24,203 bases of DNA from a virus, in IMG/VR virus record IMGVR_UViG_3300003690_000072, positions 1 through 24,203 of that record, one strand, 5' to 3'. The notes beneath the pieces are model-generated. The model searched no databases. It saw only the letters and a program-made list of their open reading frames with translations, and was not told where the DNA came from. A program made the position numbers and the translations under genes. Shown here piece after piece: positions 1 through 15,119 of the stretch; positions within the stretch are counted from its first letter, which is position 1; each line of letters starts with the position of its first letter.

Positions 1-841
1 CTAGCTCGGCGGGTTCAAGGTCGGCATCCTCAAGGTGACCTGCAACGTGCTTGTACACGCCTGTCACGTCACTGTCGGGGATGTCGGCCCCACCCATCGC
101 TCCGTTCAGGACTCCGATGGCTGATTGACAGCCCTTGATGTTGGCCGAGCCAACCATGCCATCAGTGCTGACGTTATGGTGTGGGAATTTATAGGCGCTC
201 TTGGTGTCTTCATCCTTGTCAGGATCGACGTAGGCGTACATCTTCTTGAGGGTGCTGGCTTCGGCTTCATTGGAGATTCGTTTGATCATCTCCCCGCTGT
301 CCCAGGGGTCGGTGCTGGTCGAGGTATCGTGACCAGGGATGGCATCCTTGGCGGCCGCCTTGGCGCTGATGGTCTGGGTGTATGGGGATGCGCCCCGAAT
401 GACCGTGCTGGCCTCAACCCAGTCCAGGTCGTTGATGATCCTGACGGGGGTTCCATCGATGGTCTCGATCTTGGAGCCGTTGGGTCTCATGTTGAACCCC
501 ACGCTCCACTCCCTGACGAAATCCCCTGCCACGTTAGAGAACGCCTCACGCCCTGCCTGGGTGTCCATGTTCATCTGCATCGTTGCATGGAGCCTGTACC
601 CCTGGCCGGTAGCTGCATCAGCCACGGCCCGAGCCGTTAACACCTTCCCAACGACCTCGCTCTGATCGTGAGAGGACAGAACCGGGATGGGCAAAGACCC
701 CAGCGAATTGTCGAACGCCGCCTTGGAGATGATGTCTCCGTCTGAGTCGATCACCTCCATCGTGTTGACATAGGCTTCGACGATGCCTGCCCCGGCATCG
801 AGAACCTTGGTTGTGCTACCAGAGCTAATCTTGGTTTCCAT
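1..841 (-). CDS. HK97-family prohead maturation protease (C-terminus cut by window edge)
   Basis: This gene encodes the serine protease that trims scaffold and capsid N-termini during prohead assembly (peptidase S78 / HK97 prohead protease family). It starts at ATG 841 and stays open to the left edge, so 280 residues are visible. Family signatures are present: an early V-x-S-D-x-D-x-I segment, a Ser-Ser-His-Asp stretch near residue 59 carrying the putative catalytic His, WSVGF near residue 114 carrying the putative nucleophilic Ser, and a V-x-R-G-A block near residue 145. After about residue 180 comes a helical extension with a K-F-P-H-H core, a domain often appended to head-maturation proteases or minor head proteins. 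The start lies 2 bp past the portal stop, the usual portal-protease order. The major capsid gene would be expected next, outside the window. Confidence 0.88.
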   Translation of the reverse strand, partial: METKISSGSTTKVLDAGAGIVEAYVNTMEVIDSDGDIISKAAFDNSLGSLPIPVLSSHDQSEVVGKVLTARAVADAATGQGYRLHATMQMNMDTQAGREAFSNVAGDFVREWSVGFNMRPNGSKIETIDGTPVRIINDLDWVEASTVIRGASPYTQTISAKAAAKDAIPGHDTSTSTDPWDSGEMIKRISNEAEASTLKKMYAYVDPDKDEDTKSAYKFPHHNVSTDGMVGSANIKGCQSAIGVLNGAMGGADIPDSDVTGVYKHVAGHLEDADLEPAEL

Positions 842-843
842 CA

Positions 844-2892
844 CTACTCCCTGTAGGTGCTAGGCATCGGCATCCACGACAGGGTGCCATTCGGGTGGTC
901 CATGATGTTCTCAGCATCCTCGGTTCGATACACCGTCCCGTTCCTCTGGGCACAGGTGAAGCCATACGGGTCTTCAGGGGGGACATAGTTGTCACCCCTG
1001 CCCCCATCAATGTCCACAGCTGAGACGAAGTCGAAACCTTGTTGCCGATATAGCCGTGTGGTGGTCATGTTTTGCGAGCGCATGATCTCGGTTCTGGCAA
1101 TCAGCTTTGCTCGTACCTTGGTCTCCGACATCAGGGATCGCACTCCTGGGAAATTTTCCTTCGGCACACCCCTGGCCAGCTGCTCCACAGAGTAGCCACG
1201 GGTCATAGCAGTCTCGATGGCCTTCTGGAGGTATTTCTTGGTGGTCGAGTGGATCATGTTCGCCCGCCCGTTCACCGTGGTCAGGATGCCGGTGACGACT
1301 GGGGAGTCATCTGCCCACTGCACGGCGCCCACAACCCCAGAGTCGTCAATGACCTGGTAGGTTCCCCGTGTCACCCTCATGTAGCTATTCCGCAGGATGT
1401 CAGCCAGCTCGTTCGTCGCTCCCGGCGGGATCAGCTCATCGGCACTGCCAGGGATGTCCTTCACCTCTTCGGCGCCCTGGGATCGCTCCATCAAGCGGCC
1501 CAGGATTCCGCTGACCCTGTCTCGCAGGATGCGGTAGTGCCTGTCCAGCTGGGGTTCCAGCACCAACACCTCGGCCTCTCTGGTTTCCAACAACCTGTCA
1601 TTCATCCGCATAGCACGGTCAGAGGGCTGTGGGGCTTTCAGCTCCTTCACATCCCGCACAGCTGGCAACCCCATGTCGGGCTTGTTATCGGTTCCGAAAG
1701 ACACCCCCACGGCTACAAACGCTTCGCCACCGTCGACATTTTCTTGGCCTACATAACCCCTGGCCTCGTTCAGCGTGATAACGCCAGACTGATATAGCAG
1801 GGCGATTCGGGTGGCCTGCTCGTTGCTATCATCCAGGGGGGACAGGACTGCGCTGAAATCCACCGCCAAGGTGTAGTCCGTTCCGAACTCCGGGGTCATC
1901 ATGTTGTTGAGGAACCGGATGATCCTGGAAATGAGCGGCTCAACGGTCTCGCCATGGAAGGCCAGCCTGGCTTCCTTATAGTTGGCATACGTGGAGCGGG
2001 CTAGACCCACGTTAGCGGAGATCAGGATGGGAGGAACCCCGAACACGGCACAGATGCGGGACTCGGTCAGGTAGTGCAGCCCCGTCAAGTCCATGTCTTT
2101 CGGTGCTGCCGCCATCGGTTGGTATGAGGCGTCGTCGTCTAGGATCGCCACCCTGTGCATGTTGTTGGTGCCGCCAAACGTGGAGCGCCACCTGGACCGG
2201 ATCACCCCGGCCTCTTCGGCTGAGTTGATCCGTTTCTTGATCTTCAGCAATCCACTGGGCACACCGGCGTTCTGAAAGAACACCTTGGCGAAATCCGTCA
2301 TCGCTAGATCGAGATTGACGATCCTTGACAATACCGACAGGGGGGACATGCCGTAAACGTCCCCGCCGGGGTTGGGGAACGCCATGTGAGCGATGTTCTC
2401 GGCCGGTATCTCATAGTCCCGCCCGTCGATGGTGTAGAGGTAGGTGTGGCGCTGCATGTCCCCCGGCTTGATCGACACACGATCAGGGCGCAGGAGCCAG
2501 AGGTTGATGACCCGGTTGGATCGGTTTCGTTCCTTGAGGACGTAGACGTTCCCGGCGACCTCCAAGTGCGTGACGAACTTCTCGACCCAGCTGTACATGT
2601 CGTCCTGGGTGTTGGGGCGGGTGAACAACTGGCCCAGTGGAGTGGTGGAGGGGTCGGCCTCAACAAGACCCTCCCTCTTGCTTTGCTGGACGTAATAGCG
2701 GGGTGAGGCGGCTGCGGTGGCTAGTTCCCGAATGCAGGCGTGGACAATCTCGTTTTTCCCATACCCCTCAGAGGCGAAGTTGGCGTAATTGTCTGTGGGG
2801 TATTGCGCCCCTGATAGATCAGGGATGAGGGGGATGGTCGCTGAGACAGTGTCGGGTTCTTGCTTAGATGCAAACCTGTCCCAAAACGCCAA
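844..2892 (-). CDS. Portal protein fused to a MuF-like C-terminal domain
   Basis: This is the portal: the dodecameric ring at one capsid vertex through which DNA is packaged and ejected. Residues 1 to about 450 match the HK97-type portal family, including an N-A-G-V-P-S-G-L-L segment and the V-F-G-V-P-P block followed by S-T-Y-A-N-Y. Residues from about 550 resemble the MuF/head-morphogenesis C-terminal domain: R-T-E-I-M-R-S, a Gly-rich turn, a Cys, a paired D-A and a terminal H-P-N. Many phages keep portal and MuF as separate genes; here they are one reading frame. I chose TTG 2892 (682 residues) because GAGGAGGG sits 5 nt upstream. An in-frame ATG at 2919 would add nine residues but has no ribosome binding site. 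Terminase lies upstream and the protease directly downstream. Confidence 0.88.
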   Translation of the reverse strand: MAFWDRFASKQEPDTVSATIPLIPDLSGAQYPTDNYANFASEGYGKNEIVHACIRELATAAASPRYYVQQSKREGLVEADPSTTPLGQLFTRPNTQDDMYSWVEKFVTHLEVAGNVYVLKERNRSNRVINLWLLRPDRVSIKPGDMQRHTYLYTIDGRDYEIPAENIAHMAFPNPGGDVYGMSPLSVLSRIVNLDLAMTDFAKVFFQNAGVPSGLLKIKKRINSAEEAGVIRSRWRSTFGGTNNMHRVAILDDDASYQPMAAAPKDMDLTGLHYLTESRICAVFGVPPILISANVGLARSTYANYKEARLAFHGETVEPLISRIIRFLNNMMTPEFGTDYTLAVDFSAVLSPLDDSNEQATRIALLYQSGVITLNEARGYVGQENVDGGEAFVAVGVSFGTDNKPDMGLPAVRDVKELKAPQPSDRAMRMNDRLLETREAEVLVLEPQLDRHYRILRDRVSGILGRLMERSQGAEEVKDIPGSADELIPPGATNELADILRNSYMRVTRGTYQVIDDSGVVGAVQWADDSPVVTGILTTVNGRANMIHSTTKKYLQKAIETAMTRGYSVEQLARGVPKENFPGVRSLMSETKVRAKLIARTEIMRSQNMTTTRLYRQQGFDFVSAVDIDGGRGDNYVPPEDPYGFTCAQRNGTVYRTEDAENIMDHPNGTLSWMPMPSTYRE

Positions 2893-2981
2893 CGTGACCC
2901 TCCTCTGGCATTTGGGCATTGAGCCACGGACACGGTGCCAGAATGGGCCACTGAAGGGGACTCTACCATAGGGAAATCAGG

Positions 2982-3095
2982 TCAGTCAACCTGGTTCTTG
3001 GTCTTACACCTGGAGCAGACAATGACGGTTCCCCTGGCAGCTTTCTCGGCGAGCAGCTTGCCACACCCCTGGCACCGCAACTCCTTGGTCACCAT
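2982..3095 (-). CDS. Com-like zinc-ribbon mini-protein (37 aa)
   Basis: A 37-residue protein with two Cys pairs, CQGC at residues 8-11 and CSRC near residues 27-30. The K-E-L-R-C opening and C-G-K-L-L-A context resemble the Mu Com family of small zinc-finger proteins, which in Mu activates translation of the mom DNA-modification gene. The ATG at 3095 overlaps the terL stop in ATGGTGA, so translation is probably coupled to terL. The fold assignment rests on the motif alone. A Com-like regulator would be notable in a phage that modifies its DNA, but many Com-like ribbons lie near terminase genes of phages without a mom gene, so the role here is unknown. Confidence 0.75.
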   Translation of the reverse strand: MVTKELRCQGCGKLLAEKAARGTVIVCSRCKTKNQVD

Positions 3096-4426
3096 ACCCC
3101 CACCCCGGCGGTGTCGTAATCCCCATAGATGGCCATCGCCAGGGCGTCGGCCTCATCTGGGCTTTTGGACATCTTGGCCTTCTGGGTGAGGGAGATTCTC
3201 CGGTCCGACTGGATGTTGTAACCTCGGCTGCTCAGCTGCCCGATCAGGGCGTCGTCGTTGGGAACCCTACCTCCCCCCATCACCCAGTCCCTCATGACCC
3301 ACCAGGCCTCGGCAATCCGGTTGGCAAACCGATCTGAAGCCTGGGCCTTCTCCCCACCCTTGAACGCTATGATCTCGGTCCCCGGTATCCCCACCTCGTT
3401 CAGCCGGTCAGTAACACCACCCCCCAGGCCGGTGTCATCGACCACCAGCTTGCCCACCTGGTGGTCTTCACAATACCTCCCCAACCAGCCGGCGATGCTC
3501 ATCAGGTCTTTGCCCTGGGTCTTGTAGACGATCTCGGCGTGGTTGCCCTGGCGCAACGCAACCACCGTCTTGTCCTTGCCAAACCTTGCCACGTCGCAGC
3601 CTATAATGATCTCCCCCTCTGGGATCACGTCGTTGAGCAGGGATCGTTGCAGGATGGACAGGGGGATGATTACGTCCTCCAGGTCGTCCACAAATTCCCC
3701 CAGTACAGACGCCCGGTACATGCTCGACCCTTCACCCCATTCGTCGGCCCTGTCCCGCACATCCTGGGGCGTTATCATCCCAGGTGTTACAACCGCTCCC
3801 GCCTGGATGTTGGGGGTGTCCATCGCACTGATCTGGAACGTGTTCCACCGCTCACGGTTCTGGTGATGGCTTGCGTAGAACGGCCCGGTGGTGGCGAACG
3901 GATTTCCCACCAACAACATGGTGGTCGGGTTCAATCGGTACAACGCATTGACGCTGTCGTCATCCATCGCATGGGCCTCGGTCACGATGACCAGCAGGTG
4001 GGGGCTATGGAATCCCTGGAGGTTCCAGGGGCGATCTGTCGAGAAGCCGACGATGAACGTGGACTCATCCAGCTCCCACCGGGGGGAGTCGAACAACCGG
4101 CCGCCCAGCTGCACCGGGGCCGCCCGGTACGCCGCCTTGAGCTCGTTGAACACCACGTCGTCTACCTGACGGTAGGTGGGACCGGTCACGATAACCTTGG
4201 CGGGGTAACGTGCCGTCACCCACCACAGGGCCAATCTGGCAGCGAGCCAGTCCTTGCCGCTACCATTGCATCCCACAACCGAGACCCTGCGACTGTCTTT
4301 TATCGCATCCGCAATCTCAATCTGCTTCTGGTAGGGGTTCGCCCCCAGGGCGTGTTGGAGGTATAGAACGGGGCTGTCCTGGATCGTCTGAGCCAACCCC
4401 ATCAGCTGCGAATTGACCGCTTCCAT
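3089..4426 (-). CDS. terL: Terminase large subunit (packaging ATPase-nuclease)
   Basis: TerL powers DNA translocation into the prohead and cuts the concatemer. The N-terminal ATPase has a P-loop GCNGSGKDW at residues 52-60, a T-G-P-T-Y-R-Q motif near 81-87 and a Walker B-like LLVIVTEAH at 144-152. The C-terminal RNase H-like nuclease shows its acidic residues in order: IIIGCDVARFG, LVVDDTGLGGG and D-E-A-D-A near the end. The length (445 residues) is normal for the family. The usual Thr/Ser after the P-loop Lys is Asp, and the usual Walker B Asp is Thr (see findings). ATG 4426 has GAGGG 9 nt upstream; an in-frame TTG at 4435 is less likely. The start lies inside terS (110 bp overlap), and the end overlaps the Com-like gene. 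Confidence 0.93.
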   Translation of the reverse strand: MEAVNSQLMGLAQTIQDSPVLYLQHALGANPYQKQIEIADAIKDSRRVSVVGCNGSGKDWLAARLALWWVTARYPAKVIVTGPTYRQVDDVVFNELKAAYRAAPVQLGGRLFDSPRWELDESTFIVGFSTDRPWNLQGFHSPHLLVIVTEAHAMDDDSVNALYRLNPTTMLLVGNPFATTGPFYASHHQNRERWNTFQISAMDTPNIQAGAVVTPGMITPQDVRDRADEWGEGSSMYRASVLGEFVDDLEDVIIPLSILQRSLLNDVIPEGEIIIGCDVARFGKDKTVVALRQGNHAEIVYKTQGKDLMSIAGWLGRYCEDHQVGKLVVDDTGLGGGVTDRLNEVGIPGTEIIAFKGGEKAQASDRFANRIAEAWWVMRDWVMGGGRVPNDDALIGQLSSRGYNIQSDRRISLTQKAKMSKSPDEADALAMAIYGDYDTAGVGVW

Positions 4427-4859
4427 TAGCCACAACCCTCGCCAGTTCCATGAGGCCGATGCCTTCCCCGATCAGCAGCGTCTGAGTTCTCATGTCGATC
4501 AGGGGCTTGTCGGGAATGATACCGTTGATAATGTCGATTCTTGCCATGATCCGCAGAACCATGTTGCTGGCAGTTTCGTCCCCTGCCAGAGCCTGCTGCC
4601 ACCACCTGGAGAGCATCGTGAGGTAGCGTTCCATCTGGAGGGCTCGGACGATGTTAGCGGAGCGGTCATGGGCCTTCGCCAGGTCGCCCAGCACCCTCTT
4701 CACCTCCCGGTGAACCAGGCCACGGGACACCCCCAGCGACTCGGCTATCTGCCGCTCGCTGGCCCCGGCCTTGGTGAGTTCCAGCATCTGGTATCGCCTG
4801 GTCTCAGCTGTCACCCTGGCGGCCTTGCTCGGAGGTTGGTTCGGGTGCCGATCAGCCAT
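4317..4859 (-). CDS. terS: Terminase small subunit (HTH DNA-recognition)
   Basis: Small subunits bind the packaging site and hand the DNA to TerL. The 180-residue protein has a helix-turn-helix near residues 22-55, in which ERQIAESLGVSRG gives the turn and recognition helix. A helical middle suited to oligomerisation follows, then a Pro/Gly-rich tail. Position directly before terL supports the call more than sequence identity does. The ATG at 4859 overlaps the folE stop by 8 bp, placing packaging genes in the same transcription unit as the base-modification genes. The last 110 bp also encode the start of TerL in another frame, which may explain the low-complexity C-terminus. Confidence 0.8.
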   Translation of the reverse strand: MADRHPNQPPSKAARVTAETRRYQMLELTKAGASERQIAESLGVSRGLVHREVKRVLGDLAKAHDRSANIVRALQMERYLTMLSRWWQQALAGDETASNMVLRIMARIDIINGIIPDKPLIDMRTQTLLIGEGIGLMELARVVANGSGQFAADGVGSDDPGQPRSIPPTRPGGEPLPEAD

Positions 4860-5688
4860 TGACTGCCCCCAGGAACTCAGCCCTTGCCTCTGGTAAATCT
4901 CGGAACGGTCCCGACAGGTAGTTGGTCACCATGTCGGCCCCCTGCTGCTTAACGCCTCTTGCCATCATGCAGAGGTGCTGGGCCTTGGTGTTCACCGCCA
5001 CCCCCAGCACGTTCGGCTCGATCAGCTCCCCGATCTGCCGAGTCATCCTCTCCTGTATCTGAAACCGCCGGGCAAACACGTTCACGATCCTGGAGAGCTT
5101 AGAGATACCGATGACCTTCCCCTGGGGGATGTAGCCAATCGATACCGTGCCAAAGAACGGCAACATATGGTGTTCGCAGGTGCTGTAGAACTGGATGCCT
5201 CTGGAGATAATCATCTCATCAGTGTCGTCTTCAAACCAGACCAGGTGCCGCTCTGGGTCCTGGGTGTACCCCTCGAACAGAGTCGACCACGATTCAACAA
5301 CACGGTCAGGGGTCTTGAGCATCCCCTGCCGCCCTGGGTCGTCCCCGATGAACTCGATCATCCTGGTCACAGAATCCCGAATGTCCTTCTCTGGTGATTC
5401 TTCCCAGGGGAAGGACACCCATTCGTCAATGCCCTCTTTCTGCTTGTCCACCAGGGCAACCGTGGTGAGGCCGTGTTGCGCCATGATCCTGGCAGATGTT
5501 GCACCGCTGTCAATGATGTCATCAACAGCCAACTCTGCCTCACCAGGTGTTCCAACCAGGACGGCGCCCTGGCTGCGTGAGAGAGCGCCGACAATGGCTC
5601 CTCCCCTGGGGATACCCCAGACCCGCTTCCCACCGACCTCTAGGCGGCGTATACGCTGGTCTACGTCGTCCCATGTCAGGTAGATCAT
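4852..5688 (-). CDS. folE: Phosphoribosyltransferase-GTP cyclohydrolase I fusion
   Basis: Residues 102-278 are GTP cyclohydrolase I, which converts GTP to 7,8-dihydroneopterin triphosphate, the first step to preQ0. The zinc ligands are visible (C171 and H174 in STCEHH, C240 in HLCMMARGV), as is the K-L-S-R-I-V-N-V-F-A-R-R-F-Q-I-Q-E-R core. Residues 1-100 form a separate small type I phosphoribosyltransferase-like domain: WGIPRGGA at 24-31, the PRPP-binding loop VDDIIDSGAT at 55-64, and a terminal WVSFPWE at 90-96 typical of short phage PRTases. The PRTase substrate is unknown; nucleotide salvage feeding GTP is an inference. The ATG overlaps the queE stop in ATGA, and the stop overlaps terS, so it is co-translated in the modification operon. 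Enzyme assignment of the C-terminal half is firm. Confidence 0.93.
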   Translation of the reverse strand: MIYLTWDDVDQRIRRLEVGGKRVWGIPRGGAIVGALSRSQGAVLVGTPGEAELAVDDIIDSGATSARIMAQHGLTTVALVDKQKEGIDEWVSFPWEESPEKDIRDSVTRMIEFIGDDPGRQGMLKTPDRVVESWSTLFEGYTQDPERHLVWFEDDTDEMIISRGIQFYSTCEHHMLPFFGTVSIGYIPQGKVIGISKLSRIVNVFARRFQIQERMTRQIGELIEPNVLGVAVNTKAQHLCMMARGVKQQGADMVTNYLSGPFRDLPEARAEFLGAVNG

Positions 5689-6311
5689 TCGACTTCGATC
5701 AGCTTATGAGTCTGAATGCTGAGCTTCCACCCTGGCATCGAGTACACCTTGGCCAGCGCCCGTTCCAGGTTGTGGCGGCTCTTCACCGGGTCTTCGGCAT
5801 CGATGGGTTGAATGTATCTGGTGGCCGCCCTGATCCCGTCGTAGCCCTCCGGTAGAATCCTGGGGTCAGGGTGGGGGAACAACACCTTGAGGGTGTCACA
5901 GCTGGTCACCACGGTCTGGTCCGGTGGGAGTTTGGGGGAGATGGTTAGGTGGTCCACCTGGGCGTCAATCATTCTCGTACCGTTTGATTCTACCGCCACC
6001 TTGAACCCTTGATCGTGTAGCACGTCGATCAGCTGGCGGTCTACCTGGAGGGCTGGCTCCCCGCCAGATATAGTGACCCAGGTAACCCGCCCCAGGGCCG
6101 CCAGCTGGGCAGCGATCTGATCAGCTGTCAGCATGGTATGGCTGAAGAAATCAGTGTCGCAAAACGGGCAGAGGGACTGTGCCCTGGTCTCCGGTCTGCC
6201 GTCCCACATATTGCAACCGCTCAACCTGATGAAATGGCAGACCGTACCGGTCATGCTGCCCTCACCCTGGATCGTGGGGCCGAATATCTTATGAACGCCG
6301 TATCGTCGCAC
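5685..6311 (-). CDS. queE: 7-carboxy-7-deazaguanine synthase, radical SAM (QueE)
   Basis: QueE rearranges 6-carboxytetrahydropterin (CPH4) into 7-carboxy-7-deazaguanine using a 4Fe-4S cluster and S-adenosylmethionine. The family opening IFGPTIQGEG is at residues 9-18. The cluster cysteines are C33, C48 and C51, giving the spaced Cys-x14-Cys-x2-Cys pattern of QueE enzymes instead of the plain radical SAM Cys-x3-Cys-x2-Cys, followed by D-T-D. The SAM-binding GGEP is at 83-86. Length (208 residues) is normal. The start is GTG 6311 with a poor ribosome site, 23 bp inside queD, so translational coupling is likely. It acts between QueD and QueC. Confidence 0.94.
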   Translation of the reverse strand: MRRYGVHKIFGPTIQGEGSMTGTVCHFIRLSGCNMWDGRPETRAQSLCPFCDTDFFSHTMLTADQIAAQLAALGRVTWVTISGGEPALQVDRQLIDVLHDQGFKVAVESNGTRMIDAQVDHLTISPKLPPDQTVVTSCDTLKVLFPHPDPRILPEGYDGIRAATRYIQPIDAEDPVKSRHNLERALAKVYSMPGWKLSIQTHKLIEVE

Positions 6312-6729
6312 TGGCTCTGTCCGTTTCCCAGATGGTCACCCGCTCCAGGGCCACCCCTTCAAAGGCGTGGGCTGATCGTTGGAAATCTTCGATCTGCAAC
6401 CAGACCCTCACCGCCAGGTTCTCAGCGGTGGGTTCGAAGGGGTGGGTGGTCACGTCAAAGTCTGGATGCAGGTTGCCCCCGTGGTGCCTCTCATCAGTGT
6501 CGTTCATCAAGAATTTGTGGTCAAAGTTGTCGGCGATCAACGGTTCCATCAGGTCGTCCAGCTGGGCAAAGTCCAACACCATCCCAGACTCCTCCCCCAC
6601 CTTCCCTGACACCTCCACCTCGAGCCGGTAGTTGTGACCGTGTGGGTGGTAGCACTTGCCGTCGTGGTTGGCCAGGGCGTGGCCCATCTCCCAGGTGTAG
6701 CTCTTGGCAATGCTGATCGTCAACATCAT
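6289..6729 (-). CDS. queD: 6-carboxy-5,6,7,8-tetrahydropterin synthase (QueD)
   Basis: QueD converts dihydroneopterin triphosphate to CPH4, the second step of the preQ0 pathway. The zinc ligands H17, H30 and H32 and the catalytic Cys C26 lie in the G-K-C-Y-H-P-H-G-H-N-Y block. D70-H71 (FDHKFL), the P-T-A-E-N-L motif at 100-105 and the pterin-anchoring Glu in TIWET (about 135) complete the active site of the PTPS/QueD family. Length 146 residues is slightly above the bacterial norm, with an insertion at N-D-T-D-E-R-H-H-G-G. The first of two adjacent ATG codons overlaps the stop of the upstream unknown gene. Confidence 0.94.
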   Translation of the reverse strand: MMLTISIAKSYTWEMGHALANHDGKCYHPHGHNYRLEVEVSGKVGEESGMVLDFAQLDDLMEPLIADNFDHKFLMNDTDERHHGGNLHPDFDVTTHPFEPTAENLAVRVWLQIEDFQRSAHAFEGVALERVTIWETDRASATIRRS

Positions 6730-7130
6730 GCCCCCTGCATTTGTTCGGTTACCATCTGGCGCTTCCTCGCCCGTGCCTGGTGTACGTGTTCGGACTCTCG
6801 CATGTACGGCTCCACTGGCTTCCCGTGATGCTCCCTGGAGGTTAGAGCCTGACGAGTCCGGCGCAGGTGTTCCGGCACCGTCGGTCCTGGGGCAGCTGTG
6901 AACCAGTCAGTGAACGCCATCAGAGCATCCTCACCCAGCACGGCGCCCAGGCCCTCATAGGTGATCCAGTACTTGACGATCATGTAGGGATCGTCGTCGG
7001 CGATGCGCTGGTCTGTACCCTCTCCACACAGCCACCAGATGGGTTCGGCGTATGGCTTGAGCCATGCTGCTATGCGGGAAAAGATGGGCCGGGGCTTCCC
7101 GAACATGTCATCCTGCAACGTGACTGGCAT
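6726..7130 (-). CDS. Hypothetical protein inside the modification operon
   Basis: A 134-residue soluble protein I do not recognise. The N-terminal half is rich in aromatics (W-L-K-P-Y-A-E-P-I-W-W-L near residues 23-34, then Y-M-I-V-K-Y-W-I-T-Y-E-G), and the C-terminal third is basic and helical. It has no Cys pair, P-loop, membrane segment or signal peptide. The ATG at 7130 has GAAGGGAAC upstream and overlaps the preceding HTH gene; its stop overlaps queD. That placement between Gat-QueC and QueD makes a role in base modification or its control likely, but this is guilt by association only. Confidence 0.7.
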   Translation of the reverse strand: MPVTLQDDMFGKPRPIFSRIAAWLKPYAEPIWWLCGEGTDQRIADDDPYMIVKYWITYEGLGAVLGEDALMAFTDWFTAAPGPTVPEHLRRTRQALTSREHHGKPVEPYMRESEHVHQARARKRQMVTEQMQGA

Positions 7131-7339
7131 CAGATGTTCCCTTCCAGGCTTTGGGGGACAGCCCCGTTCAAGTACTGTTCTAGTATCTTGCGACTCACAA
7201 CGATGCGACCACCCAGGTATAGAGCACCAGGTAGCTCACCCCTCCTTGCCAACCCATACGCTAGGTTCCTTCCGATGCCCAGAATGTGGGCCGCTTCATA
7301 CACCGTCCAGGTTGCCGGTTCTTGGGTATCAACACTCAT
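7130..7339 (-). CDS. Excisionase/MerR-like HTH DNA-binding protein (69 aa)
   Basis: A short protein of the HTH_17/excisionase type: an initial W-T-V-Y-E-A-A-H-I-L-G-I-G helix-turn-helix at about residues 11-23, a recognition helix N-L-A-Y-G-L-A-R-R-G, then a beta-wing (A-L-Y-L-G-G-R-I-V-V-S) and a final helix. Such proteins bend DNA during excision or act as small transcription factors. No integrase is visible, and the gene lies between Gat-QueC and queD with AGGAG upstream of its ATG, so a local regulator of the operon is more likely than a true excisionase. That role is inferred. Confidence 0.78.
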   Translation of the reverse strand: MSVDTQEPATWTVYEAAHILGIGRNLAYGLARRGELPGALYLGGRIVVSRKILEQYLNGAVPQSLEGNI

Positions 7340-7352
7340 CTGCTATCTCCTC

Positions 7353-8558
7353 TCACATTGGCACCTCTAAGCCATTTCGATCAAAAGCGGTCTCCCGCAT
7401 AAAGCAGGGACCGCAATTTCCACAGTGAACTTCACCCCCGTAATAACATGACCACGTCAAGCCATAGGGAACCCCCAGGGATGTCCCCAGCTTCACGATC
7501 TCATGCTTCATCATCCCTCCCACCGGGCTGATCAGCTGCACATGCCCACCATCATGAACGGCATAATCCAAGGCGTGGCCGAGGAGGTTGGTGAACTCCT
7601 CTTCGTTATCAGGGAACGCACCGCTCTCCTCCAGGTTGTTGCCCAGGGCGACGAACGAATACTCGTTCGCCTCCGCATAAGCCACGGCATGGGCGAGCAT
7701 CAGTAAGTTCCTGGCTGGAACCCATTCATGAGCATACTCAGCCCCCGCTTTGCCCTGGGATATAGAGCCGCCGGTAAGCAATGGAGATTGCCCCGTGAAT
7801 GAAGAATAGTCGATGTCTAAGAAAACAACTTCTCGACGTAGATCATCCGCTATCTTCTGAACCATCTGCACCTCCCTGGACTCTGCCCTGCACCCGTATC
7901 GGAAATGAAGCAGGTCCACCTCATAACCCTTGGCAACCAGATCGTATGCGACGGTGGTGCTGTCCAGTCCAGCGGAGCAAACCACCAAAGCCCTGGAGGT
8001 CGTTTCCCGAGGCAACGGGAGGGAATCCCCGCTGATCAGGTCTGTGACGGTATAGGGTTGAAGGCGGCCAGGGCGCAGACCAAAGCCACACTCAGGGAGC
8101 AGGTGTCGCTCCATCGAACTGAAGTACGTGACCCCTGCAATGCGTAGCAGGTGGAGGGGCTTATAGTTGACTGCTGCATACACCGTGTCTGAGGACACCG
8201 CTGCGATCGCAAAGCTGCCCTGCACCTTGCCTAGTGAACAGGCAACAGAACGCAGGGAGGAGCGGTCAATAACCCGTGGCAAGACCATCGAATCCACCTC
8301 GCCCGGCAACGCCCCCAGCTCCACGTCGTTGGCTATCGTGCCATTGTGAACGACCCCGTCGTAGGGTTGGTCCTCTGCATCCCAGACCTCAGTCGTCGGG
8401 GTGGCCCTCCAGTTCCCCAGGTACGCCACCTGCCCACCAGCCAGATCGTACCGTTGCATCTGGCCGCCATCCCGCCCCCGATCCTTCGCCCGCTCTGCGA
8501 TCCGGTGGAGGATGCCCAGATCAGGGTCGTTCCCTACTGCCCCGAAGATGCTACAGAT
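7353..8558 (-). CDS. gat-queC: Gat-QueC: class II amidotransferase fused to 7-cyano-7-deazaguanine synthase
   Basis: The C-terminal half is QueC, which makes preQ0 from CDG with ATP: ATP-pyrophosphatase loop SAGLDST at residues 195-201 and zinc cysteines C371, C379, C382 and C385. The N-terminal half is a class II glutamine amidotransferase: C2-S-I-F-G, R51, H71-N72-G73 and a following E-V-D-S. Gat-QueC fusions are known from archaeosine synthesis in archaea and from phages with deoxyarchaeosine; the amidotransferase half is taken to supply ammonia that turns the nitrile into a formamidine. The nucleophile must be the residue after the initiator, and the only codon there is ATC 8558, with GGGGG 8 nt upstream. 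The first ATG (8459) would delete the catalytic Cys and 32 more residues. The proposed start overlaps dpdA by 25 bp. Confidence 0.92.
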   Translation of the reverse strand: MCSIFGAVGNDPDLGILHRIAERAKDRGRDGGQMQRYDLAGGQVAYLGNWRATPTTEVWDAEDQPYDGVVHNGTIANDVELGALPGEVDSMVLPRVIDRSSLRSVACSLGKVQGSFAIAAVSSDTVYAAVNYKPLHLLRIAGVTYFSSMERHLLPECGFGLRPGRLQPYTVTDLISGDSLPLPRETTSRALVVCSAGLDSTTVAYDLVAKGYEVDLLHFRYGCRAESREVQMVQKIADDLRREVVFLDIDYSSFTGQSPLLTGGSISQGKAGAEYAHEWVPARNLLMLAHAVAYAEANEYSFVALGNNLEESGAFPDNEEEFTNLLGHALDYAVHDGGHVQLISPVGGMMKHEIVKLGTSLGVPYGLTWSCYYGGEVHCGNCGPCFMRETAFDRNGLEVPM

Positions 8559-9418
8559 TGCAATCGCCCCCGTTCTTCTAGGAACTCATAAGACCTGAAC
8601 AGAGCACCCACCTCAAACGTCGTCGTCTGTGCCAGATAGTACGTTGTGCCGACGGACCTTTCCATGTCCATGCCCCGATAAACGTGATGAACGTAGGACA
8701 TAAGAGATGCTACACCCCTCCCGCTATCCCAGCTCGTCGAGTTCGCCCCACCTCTCCAATGGGCTGACTTACTCAGACGGGCTATCTCGCCCTGAGTGAA
8801 CCCCACCTGGAGACAAGACCGGACGAAGCTTTCGGGGGGTCGCTTGGCGAACTCCTGTCTGCCTAACGTCTTCATCTGTCCTCCCCCGATGTAGTACATG
8901 AAACTGCCATAGCGCTGAACAGATGTGACGCTGCTGGCATCTACGCTGGTCGGGCGATAATGCTTGATGAAATTATGATCGGAGAACCCCAACCAGTGAA
9001 CCGGGCGACCCTGGTTGTTCTCCATGAAATAGCGGATGTAGTTCTTGTTCCCCTTGCCGCTCACGATGCCCCCAAACATGACGAGCGGGGATTGCCGGTA
9101 GTATTCGTCCAACACCTCCAGGTCGCCACCCCTGGTGAATACAGGCAGGGCATCAACGCCCGCATCCAACATCCGCAGCCAATTCTCTTTCGTTTTGATC
9201 GGGTCACCGATGACGTCCAGCTGGATGAAAGACACGTCCCAGGAAGAGGGGAACGAGCGGATGAACCGGAGGTAATCGTTCATCACTATTGGCTCCCCCA
9301 ACGTCCAGGCGCTATACGCCCCGGAGTCTATCAGGAGCCGAAACCTGGCCGGGTCTTGCTCACCCAGTAAACGCCAGAAACCCCCTGCGCTCTGCTCCCA
9401 ATACGGGAACGAAATCAG
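8534..9418 (-). CDS. dpdA: DpdA-like DNA transglycosylase (TGT paralog)
   Basis: DpdA-type enzymes are paralogs of tRNA-guanine transglycosylase that swap guanine in DNA for a 7-deazaguanine base. Counting from CTG 9418, D31-S-G-A-Y-S matches the TGT D-S-G-G-F active-site motif, F-I-Q-L-D-V-I-G-D-P is at 64-73, G-G-I-V-S-G at 116-121 forms the base-binding turn, and D160 in T-S-V-D-A-S is the probable nucleophile. Length 294 residues fits phage DpdA. The start is unusual: no ATG, GTG or TTG lies between the upstream in-frame stop and D31. CTG 9418 has AAGG 8 nt upstream. The TTG at 9301 would remove D31. It sits directly between the ParB-like gene and Gat-QueC. Exact DpdA subclass is not resolved. 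Confidence 0.88.
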   Translation of the reverse strand: MISFPYWEQSAGGFWRLLGEQDPARFRLLIDSGAYSAWTLGEPIVMNDYLRFIRSFPSSWDVSFIQLDVIGDPIKTKENWLRMLDAGVDALPVFTRGGDLEVLDEYYRQSPLVMFGGIVSGKGNKNYIRYFMENNQGRPVHWLGFSDHNFIKHYRPTSVDASSVTSVQRYGSFMYYIGGGQMKTLGRQEFAKRPPESFVRSCLQVGFTQGEIARLSKSAHWRGGANSTSWDSGRGVASLMSYVHHVYRGMDMERSVGTTYYLAQTTTFEVGALFRSYEFLEERGRLQSVASSGQ

Positions 9419-9428
9419 GAAATTAACC

Positions 9429-9995
9429 TTAGCCGACCTGGACGCCGTTCCAGCCCTGGGTTCTAACGTAGTCTGTGACAGCTTCCGTCACCTCATCTCT
9501 CAGGTCTTCTGGAAACGTGACCCTGAAATGGCCGTCCATCGAAGCGTCGAGGGGAGTGATCCGGTTGATTATGTCGGCGTCAGCAACCCAGTCGTCAATC
9601 TGGGCTTGCAACTCATTCGTAATGAGGCGAATCTGCTCGTTCTGAATATCTACCCCCTGGAGAAGCTTCCGCAGCTGGGAATCATCCGCAATAGCCATCG
9701 CAGCCAGGGGATCGAGGGTCAGGAGCATCTGATCAGCTTCCTCCTCGGTCACGTCGACAATAAGAACAGGCACCTCCTGGTCTCCCATGATCTCTCGACG
9801 GAGGTGCCCGTCTATAAGTTCCAGCCCATCCTCGGTCTCTCTGGCGATCATAGCATCTGCGAAACCGATCTCCTCAAGAACCCCCTGCATGGCGGCCGCC
9901 TGATTCGGTGGATGGGATCGCCAGTTCTTGGGGTTGGCTCTCAGCTGGGAGGCTGGGACTCGTCGCAGTTCCTTGACCCGATCCTTGAAAGCCAT
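9429..9995 (-). CDS. ParB/Srx-fold nuclease-like protein next to dpdA
   Basis: A 188-residue protein with a ParB N-terminal-like domain: V-P-A-S-Q-L-R-A-N-P-x-N-W-R at about 13-26, then E-L-I-D-G-H-L-R-R-E at about 68-77 (equivalent of ParB box II), P-V-L-I-V-D-V and a T-L-D-P-L-A-A-M-A motif common in phage ParB-like proteins. ParB folds in phages act as CTPase, DNA-binding or nuclease modules. DpdB, the partner of bacterial DpdA, also has a ParB-like domain, so a DpdB-like role is a reasonable inference. The gene starts at ATG 9995 with GGAGGG close upstream, and its stop lies 10 bp before the proposed dpdA start. The frame is open up to 10145, but that extension has no ribosome site. Confidence 0.82.
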   Translation of the reverse strand: MAFKDRVKELRRVPASQLRANPKNWRSHPPNQAAAMQGVLEEIGFADAMIARETEDGLELIDGHLRREIMGDQEVPVLIVDVTEEEADQMLLTLDPLAAMAIADDSQLRKLLQGVDIQNEQIRLITNELQAQIDDWVADADIINRITPLDASMDGHFRVTFPEDLRDEVTEAVTDYVRTQGWNGVQVG

Positions 9996-10116: not shown

Positions 10117-10455
10117 TCAGGCCAGCACGGCCTCCAGCTGATCAACGTGTTCGGGGTATCGCCAGAGGTAGAACTCCACCCCTGGGATGCCCTGGAGCCC
10201 CACCTGCCACCGTTTCTGATGATCGGTCACCGGTGCCTTGCGCCTCGATCTGTCGTCCCAATCCGCATGACCTGGGTCGTACTTCAACTCGGCGAAGACC
10301 AACCGGGTGCCACGGACCAGCACCAGATCGGGGAACCCTGGGTCTGACCGCTGGGAGTTGTGGGTGTGGTAGATCAACCCCCACCCAGCAAGCTCTGCCG
10401 AGGTTCTAACGTGTTGGGTGAAGCTTCTTTCGTTTTCAATTATGATCATAGTCAT
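10117..10455 (-). CDS. VRR-NUC domain nuclease
   Basis: A 112-residue stand-alone VRR-NUC protein, a PD-(D/E)xK-fold nuclease common in phages and proposed to process branched DNA. The sequence shows E-x-x-F-T-Q at the N-terminus, the G-F-P-D-L-V-L-V-R-G strand with catalytic Asp, then F-A-E-L-K giving the E-x-K pair, D-H-Q-K-R-W helix and a terminal Y-L-W-R-Y-P. ATG 10455 follows AGGTGGG by 4-5 nt; an upstream in-frame start at 10476 is less well placed. A strong hairpin overlaps its ribosome site. It follows the RecA-like ATPase, consistent with a replication/recombination job. Confidence 0.88.
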   Translation of the reverse strand: MTMIIIENERSFTQHVRTSAELAGWGLIYHTHNSQRSDPGFPDLVLVRGTRLVFAELKYDPGHADWDDRSRRKAPVTDHQKRWQVGLQGIPGVEFYLWRYPEHVDQLEAVLA

Positions 10456-10463
10456 AAGTCCCA

Positions 10464-10502
10464 CCTGATCCCCCACACCCCTTAAGGGGGTGGGGGGTCA
10501 GG
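10464..10502 (-). terminator. Strong hairpin between helicase-like gene and VRR-NUC
   Basis: CCTGA-C-rich and G-rich-TCAGG arms pair around a central CCCCTTAAGGGG, with one bulge. There is no U-run after the stem, so it is not a textbook intrinsic terminator. The 3' arm includes part of the AGGTGGG ribosome site of the nuclease gene, so it may instead limit translation. Confidence 0.5.
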
Positions 10503-10542: not shown

Positions 10543-11853
10543 TTAGACCCCCAGTTCCTCAGTGATCGCCCAGACAGGCCCCTTGTGGCCGTTCTGATCG
10601 ATCCCAGGCACGCTCTCGAACCGCTCGTCCTTGGTTAGCTCTACCGACACGTCATCGTCCTTCAATCCCAGTTCACTCGCAAGCTCTCCGGTGGAGGTTG
10701 CACCGGCCTGGGTTATCAGGTGGTGCGCCCTATCAGCTGTCGGCATCGATAACATTAGCTGGGCGCTCTGACGGATATCGTAATAGTCCAGGGTTATCCC
10801 ATCAGGTAGCCAATTCATCTTGAACCCACCGGCCTCGTAGAGCGGGCCGGTGTTGGACTTGCGGTGGTGTAGGGCAAAGGACGCAACCGTGGAACCCTTC
10901 GGTTGATCGTTCTGGAGCTCGAAAACGTTTCGGGGAATGTTGATCCAATAAACCGACCCGAATGGACTGCTGCCCCCTGTCATCTTCTTTCTCCCCTCAT
11001 GGGATACGTGGGCCAGTATCAGGGTGTTCAGCGGTTGGTCGTGTGGGCCTAATCTCCTAAGGGCTTCAAAGAACGCAAGGGTGGCCGCACTGCTCTCGGG
11101 CTCCCCACCACACGCCGGTCCAGCCGAGTCCACGATCACGGTTCGGATGTTGAGTCGGGCCACCTCCTGGCGCAGGAACTCCACGGCGTCCCAGATCGGC
11201 CCAGCCATGAACCGGTAGAACACAAAGGCGGTGCGCCTGCTCTCATGGGCGTCAGGATCAACCCAATCGCCCGACGTGATGCCGCTGGCGTCGAGGATCA
11301 TCTTGTTGCGCCAGTACGTCAGGTCTTCAGACGTTTCCCAGTCCAGGTATAGCGTGTTGGACTGGATCGCCTGTCTTCCCCCCACACTCGTGCCGGTGTG
11401 AAGGGCCGATGCGAACACAAGGGCCAGAGCTGATTTCCCGATCCCTCCAGGGCCGTATACCAGGGACGGCAATCCCTGCCAGACAACCCCCTGCAAGACC
11501 TCGGTGGTGGGGCGGGGGTTCTCCATGTTGCCCAGGGAGATCACCGGCGCCCCCGCTCTGAATTTCGGCAATACCATCTTTTTTATTTGCGTGAATCGTT
11601 GTTGCCAATCGGCACGCTCCGACACCCTCTCGATCTCCCGAATTGCGGTTGTGAAGGTGCCTGTTATCTCCTGGCGTACCGGGCCGAACAGGTGGGGATT
11701 AAGCTCTGATTCATCGATCACCTCGATCTCTGCGTCGATCTTCTTGTTGCGGTGACCGTACCATTCGCAGATGGTCACGATTACACCCTCGTCCCAGCGG
11801 ACGATGTAGAGGTCGCCTTCCTCGGTAATGGTTGGAATGGACAGGTTGTTCAT
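10543..11853 (-). CDS. RepA/RecA-like P-loop ATPase (AAA_25 type)
   Basis: A 436-residue ATPase of the hexameric RepA/DnaB-related group. Walker A GPGGIGKS is at 134-141, an acidic D-W-E-T-S follows strand two near 171-175, and Walker B V-I-V-D-S is near 239-243. L-I-L-A-H-V-S-H at 278-285 and a G-S-S-P-F-G-S sensor-like loop at about 294-300 match the family. The C-terminal 80 residues look like a winged helix (T-G-E-L-A-S-E-L-G-L). Likely roles are replicative helicase or loader. No polymerase or primase is visible in the window. The ATG at 11853 overlaps the upstream stop as ATGA, although its AGGAGG is rather far (about 14 nt), so coupling probably matters. Confidence 0.85.
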   Translation of the reverse strand: MNNLSIPTITEEGDLYIVRWDEGVIVTICEWYGHRNKKIDAEIEVIDESELNPHLFGPVRQEITGTFTTAIREIERVSERADWQQRFTQIKKMVLPKFRAGAPVISLGNMENPRPTTEVLQGVVWQGLPSLVYGPGGIGKSALALVFASALHTGTSVGGRQAIQSNTLYLDWETSEDLTYWRNKMILDASGITSGDWVDPDAHESRRTAFVFYRFMAGPIWDAVEFLRQEVARLNIRTVIVDSAGPACGGEPESSAATLAFFEALRRLGPHDQPLNTLILAHVSHEGRKKMTGGSSPFGSVYWINIPRNVFELQNDQPKGSTVASFALHHRKSNTGPLYEAGGFKMNWLPDGITLDYYDIRQSAQLMLSMPTADRAHHLITQAGATSTGELASELGLKDDDVSVELTKDERFESVPGIDQNGHKGPVWAITEELGV

Positions 11854-13739: not shown

Positions 13740-13883
13740 CTAGAAGTCCTTGGTGTCGGTGCATGGGCAATGACACCAGGGGTCGATGCACCGGTGCTTG
13801 TCCACCTCCTCGTCTCTCAGATGAGACCGCCAGCACGGGGCGCATATACGAAACTCGATGTCGCTCTCTTTACCCCCTGCCAT
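13740..13883 (-). CDS. Cys/His-rich mini-protein (47 aa)
   Basis: A 47-residue protein with C-A-P-C near residue 13 and a His-Cys cluster (H-R-C-I-D-P-W-C-H-C-P-C) near the C-terminus, enough ligands for one or two zinc ions. The family is unknown. The ATG at 13883 overlaps the DUF932 stop in TGATG, so translational coupling is likely. The frame is open further upstream, but that would lie entirely inside the DUF932 gene. Confidence 0.62.
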   Translation of the reverse strand: MAGGKESDIEFRICAPCWRSHLRDEEVDKHRCIDPWCHCPCTDTKDF

Positions 13884-14935
13884 CACACCCCTTTTAGGGA
13901 CAACGCCTTGCCCATCTGGCGATCCGGTAGGGTGAGAATGTCCCACGCCACCTGCCTGATCCTGGCGCCGTCGCCAAACCACGTCCCGTTCAGCCGTCGC
14001 TCCACGTCCACCACCTCTGTACTGGCAACCGATTCGGACGCCTTGCCGCCCTTGCTGTAATCCACAAATTCCGTGACGGCGTTGTAGGCATCCCACCTGG
14101 TCTTGCCCTGGTTACCCTGGCCGGTGGAGAACAGATCGAACACCGTGCGGGCCGAGCCTTCCTTGGCCCCGTGCTGGCCCGAAAACGGCTTGTCTGGATC
14201 AAGGTCTAAAACCTTGTAGGTCAACCGCTCCATGTCCCATGACGTGAAGGCATGGCTGGCGATCTCGTTGCACTGATCTATGAAAGCGTCCATGTACACC
14301 TTGTTCAGCCCCAGGAGATCACGGGCCTCTCTAACCTTGCCCAGGATGCCCCCCGTGTGCCTTGCGTAGAACTCGGCGCTCTTGAGGGTAGCTGCCGACA
14401 GGGTGTTGGAGCAGACCACCCTGATGGGCGTCAAACGCATCCGCAGGGCCGAGGAGCCGTCATGGGAGTTATCCAGCAGCACGAAGGATTCCAGCTTCTC
14501 CCCGTTGTCCAACACGTACTCACCGTTCCCGATCCTCGCCAGTATCCACACCCTGCGGCCACCCCAGAGGGAACCAGCCGTGTGGTATGTGGCCTGCCCG
14601 GCCCCCACGATCTCATCGAAGAATCCAAAGCACTCCACGTTCTGGACGGGGGTGTACTTGGCCCCCAGGATGTTGAACACGGTCTCGGTGTCCTCCCGTA
14701 CCACCGCCACCTTGCCCTGCACCTTCACCCCTCTCCAATCTGAACCAGCCCCGTATACGGTGGAGCCAAGAGGCTCCATGTAGACTTCCCTCGTAACCAC
14801 CTCCCAGTCGAGCCCCGCCGCCGAGATCGCCTCGGCGGCCGTCATCGCATCCCCGTCAACCAGGGTTCCCAACCCATGCCAGGGCTGTCGCCCCACAAAC
14901 GCCATTCCATCCGTCTCAGTAATTCCATGTGCCAT
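13883..14935 (-). CDS. DUF932 phage/plasmid protein
   Basis: A 350-residue member of the DUF932 family (phage/plasmid-like protein TIGR03299 type), common in phages and plasmids and without an established biochemical function. Typical features are the W-H-G-L-G opening near residues 19-23, the F-N-I-L-G-A-K-Y-T-P-V-Q-N segment near 90-100, a central beta-rich domain, and R-L-T-P-I-R-V-V-C-S-N-T-L near 185-197, a strongly conserved family signature. ATG 14935 follows GAAGGAG by 6-7 nt; an upstream in-frame start is possible but lacks a site. It leads a set of coupled genes running towards the replication module. Confidence 0.88.
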   Translation of the reverse strand: MAHGITETDGMAFVGRQPWHGLGTLVDGDAMTAAEAISAAGLDWEVVTREVYMEPLGSTVYGAGSDWRGVKVQGKVAVVREDTETVFNILGAKYTPVQNVECFGFFDEIVGAGQATYHTAGSLWGGRRVWILARIGNGEYVLDNGEKLESFVLLDNSHDGSSALRMRLTPIRVVCSNTLSAATLKSAEFYARHTGGILGKVREARDLLGLNKVYMDAFIDQCNEIASHAFTSWDMERLTYKVLDLDPDKPFSGQHGAKEGSARTVFDLFSTGQGNQGKTRWDAYNAVTEFVDYSKGGKASESVASTEVVDVERRLNGTWFGDGARIRQVAWDILTLPDRQMGKALSLKGV

Positions 14936-15119
14936 CAGGTGCTCCTTCTTGCGCTTACCATATGCGGGCACCGGCTCGCTACAACATCGCCAATGCCCAC
15001 CCGAAATCGGGGTATCTCCTATTCTCCTTTTCTCATCCTATTTCCCTGACAACCCGAACTGCCAGGGATTACGTGGACGCCCCGCACTGGCTGTGCGGAA
15101 CCGCTTCGGGCCTAACCAC
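14936..15119. other. 184-bp intergenic region with one hairpin
   Basis: No convincing gene lies here. A short hairpin (CCGCAC, 5-base loop, GTGCGG) at 15082-15098 follows the upstream stop by about 20 bp. The remainder is an A/G-rich leader on the transcribed strand with two GGAG-like stretches and only very short reading frames. Confidence 0.5.

Follow-up and report, generated by a model that had tools for sequence, protein, structure and literature searches.

In Enterobacteria phage 9g, Gat-QueC and DpdA insert deoxyarchaeosine (dG+) into Escherichia coli plasmid DNA, and dG+ blocks cleavage by EcoRI (Hutinet et al. 2019; PMC6884629). The same study lists many phages with the dG+ gene set. 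We compared these systems with a gene cluster for 7-deazaguanine synthesis and DNA base exchange of an uncultured phage, in a linear virus record from IMG/VR (IMGVR_UViG_3300003690_000072), whose 24,203 bases are referred to here as the window. An earlier note on this DNA had named genes for FolE, QueD, QueE, Gat-QueC, and DpdA, and all five are present with strong family matches. The gene content matches the 9g-type dG+ pathway, which is itself already known, and the cluster is probably a phage 7-deazaguanine DNA-modification module of that type. It is very likely that the phage DNA carries a 7-deazaguanine; with less assurance, dG+ is the expected main product.

The genes for the pathway enzymes are all on the minus strand. 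The first, in descending coordinates, encodes DpdA, a tRNA-guanine-transglycosylase-like DNA base exchanger (8534..9418; phrog_887, E = 2.8e-28), followed by Gat-QueC, in which a class II glutamine amidotransferase domain precedes QueC (7353..8558; PF06508, E = 3.9e-50; phrog_10428, E = 3.6e-98). QueD (6-carboxytetrahydropterin synthase; 6289..6729; PF01242, E = 1.6e-31) and QueE (7-carboxy-7-deazaguanine synthase of the Cx14CxxC radical-SAM subtype; 5685..6311; TIGR04508, E = 2.8e-50) are followed by a protein (4852..5688; PF01227, E = 1.4e-61) that joins a Gpt-like phosphoribosyltransferase (residues 1 to ~103) to FolE, GTP cyclohydrolase I (residues ~104 to 275). Chance is excluded for the family matches of all five enzymes. 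QueD scores 89.8 bits against TIGR03367, marginally above the cut-off of 89.25 bits. QueE, at 171 bits, falls under the curated TIGR04508 cut-off of 240; the Cx14CxxC cluster motif can be read directly in its sequence, and it is a divergent member of this type. Based on these families, FolE, QueD, and QueE would convert GTP to 7-carboxy-7-deazaguanine, and the QueC half of Gat-QueC would make preQ0. The Gat half would use ammonia from glutamine to form the amidine of G+, before or after base insertion, and DpdA would exchange guanine in DNA for the modified base. As inferred from 9g, the modified phage DNA would resist some host restriction enzymes; phages Rosebush and CAjan suggest the same protection.

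The alignment of Gat-QueC to its counterparts in 9g and in phage isolates spans the full protein and shows that Cys1, RGRD, the arginine of WRATP, and HNG-IAND are retained. Across 32 Gat domains, Cys1, Arg26-Gly-Arg-Asp, Arg50, Asn71-Gly72, and Asp88 are invariant. Both alignment and structural model place the Gat domain in fusion with QueC, with the cysteine nucleophile in frame. The Gat domain model (mean predicted local distance difference test score, pLDDT, of 94.6) matches PurF, GlmS, asparagine synthetase (AsnB), and EgtC, all of which have N-terminal nucleophile (Ntn) amidotransferase-type folds. The QueC half keeps the zinc motif C(x)8CxxCxxC as defined in PMC13329287 (SCYYGGEVHCGNCGPC). 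In DpdA, the aspartates of DSGA, LDxIGD, and VDxS (codons 9328-9326, 9217-9215, and 8941-8939) are kept and align with D72, D114, and D215 of the 9g enzyme, and a histidine (codon 8998-8996) aligns exactly with 9g H196. Absence of the H196-equivalent histidine is a mark that separates DpdA2 from DpdA (PMC6884629), and by its presence the window enzyme is of the DpdA type, not DpdA2. The earlier note calls these active sites intact, which is accurate for the open frames; DpdA and Gat-QueC proteins that begin at ATG, GTG, or TTG would not have intact sites.

The Gat-QueC frame is open from the last upstream stop (TGA, 8588-8586), and its first ATG is at 8459. At the start-codon position, immediately before Cys1, stands ATC (8556..8558, minus strand), the only start position that would yield Met-Cys. 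This codon is ATG or GTG in all 42 related loci compared, some of which are nearly identical to one another (GTG in four). A pattern scan of viral contigs for Gat-QueC genes started by ATH gave chance matches only, while a matched scan for DTG starts did recover known and new Gat-QueC genes. A Shine-Dalgarno-like ACGGGGGC, a GGGGG stretch located 7 nt before ATC 8558, is predicted to pair with the anti-Shine-Dalgarno sequence at -8.6 kcal/mol, a value between the 5% (-9.1) and 10% (-7.3) quantiles of the background and suggestive only; Shine-Dalgarno scoring does not settle the start of either DpdA or Gat-QueC. The DpdA frame is open from 9487 with near-cognate candidates at CTG 9481 and CTG 9418, and use of its first canonical start (TTG 9301) would remove the invariant DSGA motif at 9328. 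At the junction between the DpdA stop and the Gat start, the related locus L005 reads CTC TGA TG TGC and the window reads TTG CAA TC TGT, so that with CAATC in place of TGATG the overlapping stop and start signals are both lost. Normal starts are present in the remaining genes of the cluster. A programmed frameshift that joins DpdA to Gat-QueC is not favored; no usual slippery site was seen by eye, and the Gat nucleophile would be buried in such a fusion.

Identity of Gat residues 1-33 to metagenomic relatives is 45% to 64%, compared with 52% to 64% for residues 34-170, and this conservation argues that the first 33 residues are translated. Initiation at ATC 8558 is the simplest reading, although unproven. 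The start site would set the predicted product: ATC 8558 predicts dG+, whereas a start at ATG 8459 removes Cys1 and predicts dPreQ0. The claim that the cluster is a route to dG+ (or preQ0) is supported in part: gene content, motifs, Gat fold, and synteny with isolates fit the published pathway (PMC6884629), and the choice between the two bases hinges on the ATC start. We consider dG+ the most likely product because sequence conservation in the frame up to Cys1 equals that in the remainder of the Gat domain, implying translation, most simply from ATC 8558. Several observations weigh against this view. In both the DpdA and the Gat-QueC frame, ATG, GTG, and TTG are absent ahead of the first conserved motif, and the literature describes AUC and CUG as rare starts in bacteria; expression of both proteins may thus be very low. 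The P-loop of the QueC half is SAGLDS, which departs from the strict SGGxDS; SAGLDS is common to several relatives, with SGGLDS in others. This half scores far above the PF06508 cut-off and at 143.7 bits against TIGR00364 (cut-off 150.3), and it is a QueC-family protein one residue off the strict P-loop motif. Finally, gene content had assigned Streptococcus phage Dp-1 to the dG+ pathway, yet this phage lacked dG+ (PMC6884629).

The missing canonical starts are also the basis of two other explanations. One, which we regard as unlikely, is that the Gat half is non-functional because translation begins at ATG 8459, or at ATT 8564 with the cysteine internal; the protein would then effectively be QueC and the DNA would carry dPreQ0. 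Consistent with this, no ATG, GTG, or TTG lies ahead of Cys1, the frame reaches its first canonical start at ATG 8459, and the same locus in close relatives has QueC without Gat, indicating that the lineage lives with plain QueC. However, conservation of residues 1-33, Cys1 and RGRDG among them, is like that of the remaining domain, which would be unexpected had they long been untranslated. It is still less probable that DpdA and Gat-QueC are decaying, or that the contig has local base errors, in which case no modified base would be made and the cluster would at most supply more preQ0 for host tRNA. The loss of a canonical start in two neighboring genes, and of two signals within the five bases that separate window CAATC from TGATG in L005, could be read in this way. 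But the two genes retain ~300 and ~400 stop-free codons with every catalytic motif kept, starts are normal elsewhere in the cluster, and three base errors in five bases are unlikely. Modification by dG+, with Gat-QueC initiated at ATC 8558, remains our preferred reading.

The N-terminal ~103 residues of the FolE protein form an extra domain ahead of the cyclohydrolase domain (5380..5688, minus strand), with a PRGG loop, the phosphoribosyl pyrophosphate (PRPP) motif VDDIIDSGxT, Lys82, Trp90, and PWE. A profile built from 34 sequences of this domain matches xanthine-guanine phosphoribosyltransferase (XGPRT) in PDB (E = 3.8e-10), and the top 16 PDB folds matched by its model (pLDDT 91.7) are all XGPRT chains. 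P27, G29, G30, D56, D57, G62, K82, W90, P94, W95, and E96 are invariant in the 34 sequences, and the PRPP motif and the base-binding lysine and tryptophan align with XGPRT. An alignment gap shows that the ~22-residue XGPRT loop between the second strand and the PRPP motif is missing, and because of this we label the domain Gpt-like and not a Gpt. A literature search of partial coverage did not find a published description of the domain. It is present in 34 GenBank phage records, the annotated ones of which name the protein only GTP cyclohydrolase or hypothetical protein, and DpdA adjoins it in the five of these that were opened.

With the domain as the only query, 83 loci were recovered from viral and cellular contigs; related contigs are among them, and the counts serve as description only. 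DpdA is within reach in 70 of the 83, and at least one of QueC, QueD, and QueE is present at 80. Nine of the 13 loci without DpdA were judged to be cut by a contig end after inspection of coordinates (the others are L153, L203, L207, and L232), which puts DpdA at 70 of the 74 loci judged evaluable. Fused and unfused FolE loci differ in DpdA presence (Fisher p = 0.006), a value we do not rely on as the loci are selected and related. The domain also occurs as a stand-alone gene in clusters with unfused FolE (L005, 8209-8700; L006, 3816-4214; L008, 2679-3164; L017, 8764-9234; L067, 7553-8020).

By the established chemistry of transglycosylases, a DpdA-type exchange must release guanine, which makes salvage of this base to GMP an attractive role for the domain. 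The domain probably handles a free purine base, and our preferred guess, an inference, is that it salvages the guanine displaced by DpdA. A wider proposal is tentative, and we doubt that it will hold in full. In it, a compact Gpt-like enzyme recurs in phage systems for DNA deazaguanine, mostly as a FolE fusion, and converts DpdA-released guanine back to GMP; this would replenish the GTP that the fused FolE consumes and close the cycle. As a separate part of this proposal, the window DpdA and Gat-QueC may use non-AUG starts that would set the level and kind of modification. With regard to the role of the domain only, it is quite possible, if short of an even chance, that it is a binding or sensor module through which PRPP or guanine nucleotides regulate FolE, or that it acts on the deazapurine base. 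The missing ~22-residue loop would fit such roles, as would the few clusters (L153, L203, and L207) that have the domain but in which the profile detected no DpdA; the invariance of the PRPP-loop, lysine, and tryptophan residues in 34 sequences and the presence of DpdA at nearly all evaluable loci weigh against them.

Two of the domain loci have gene contents of their own. In a Sinorhizobium psoraleae scaffold (L153, 3847-6798), QueE, QueC, QueD, and phosphoribosyltransferase-FolE are consecutive, with no DpdA detected within 6 kb. The viral contig L203 (6714-14809) contains QueD, QueE, and phosphoribosyltransferase-FolE with no DpdA detected, and a downstream protein with the adenylosuccinate-synthetase-like motif QWGDEGKGK; purine modification in this contig may take place on nucleotides.

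The followed annotated genes of the window are all on the minus strand. In descending coordinates they are an AAA ATPase (10543-11853), a small open reading frame (ORF; 10117-10476), a ParB-like protein (9429..9995, start ATG 9995; phrog_620/498), DpdA, Gat-QueC, a small HTH_17/excisionase-like DNA-binding protein (7130-7339; PF12728), an ORF without a match to Pfam, PHROG, or TIGR profiles (6726-7130), QueD, QueE, FolE, the small and large terminase, and the portal. The block from DpdA to FolE is directly upstream of terminase, and the ParB-like gene that adjoins it is also near the deazaguanine cluster in many relatives. The earlier note described one co-directional block; the shared strand is confirmed, but the block is interrupted by the two genes at 7130-7339 and 6726-7130. 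A pathway role for these two is unlikely, and they are probably outside the pathway, because both are kept in the sister phage L149, in which the search for pathway genes found none. A PADLOC run returned matches of the QueC type only and no defence system. A DUF932 protein (PF06067, E = 4.6e-45) is encoded on the same strand at 13883-14971.

L149 (29 kb) is 72% identical to the window in TerL, 59% in TerS, 83% in the HTH protein, and 74% in the 6726-7130 ORF. No DpdA, QueC, or FolE was found in the 8.4 kb of it that were examined (1-8399) and no FolE or QueC record-wide, although this record may be incomplete. In L083-L085, L088-L089, L092, L094, and L096, the window's close relatives in FolE, QueE, and terminase, the same place is occupied by QueC lacking a Gat domain, and Gat-QueC is present in L002 and L003. 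Since the sister shows no cluster and plain QueC takes this position in close relatives, the deazaguanine cluster is a mobile module. The window DpdA is nearest to that of L005/L006 (46% to 48% identity) and not to those of its FolE relatives (28% to 32%), and for this reason a different lineage appears to be the source of DpdA and Gat-QueC. DpdA alone as a query gave no matches in viral and genome collections. In L086 (3485-4312) and L087 (2467-3294), a weakly QueC-like protein (E = 4.5e-07) is encoded where relatives carry QueC or Gat-QueC.

One further phage with an established pathway is unsurprising; the parts worth following are the missing canonical starts and the Gpt-like domain. As this domain is unnamed in 34 GenBank phage records and travels with DpdA, it opens guanine recycling in DNA base exchange to direct tests. 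The lineage also offers a natural comparison, with near relatives that have the module with Gat-QueC, have it with plain QueC, or show none of it.

Among known enzymes, E. coli XGPRT (Gpt) comes closest in both sequence and fold to the N-terminal domain of the FolE protein, a putative phosphoribosyltransferase that is ~40 residues shorter and fused to FolE. Phage 9g shares FolE, QueD, QueE, Gat-QueC of equal architecture, and an H196-type DpdA with the window. However, the window Gat-QueC is at least 52% divergent from that of 9g in each region compared, DpdA is ~28% identical to those of 9g relatives, the gene order is different, and in 9g FolE lacks the phosphoribosyltransferase domain and Gat-QueC starts with ATG. 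In Microbacterium phages Megan and Nicole72, DpdA, Gat-QueC, QueD, QueE, and FolE lie by terminase in the same order, and Mycobacterium phage StAugustine differs from the window gene order only in where one small gene lies. In Megan, too, Gat-QueC and QueD are separated by two small genes; homology of these to the window pair was rejected, as they have no similarity. In all three phages, FolE is without the phosphoribosyltransferase domain and Gat-QueC is about 40% to 41% identical to that of the window. Members of the Queuovirinae (Pseudomonas phage Quinobequin-P09 and Vibrio phage VpKK5) have another gene order and a fusion annotated as GTP cyclohydrolase only, but like the window they encode phosphoribosyltransferase-FolE next to QueD, QueE, QueC or Gat-QueC, and DpdA.

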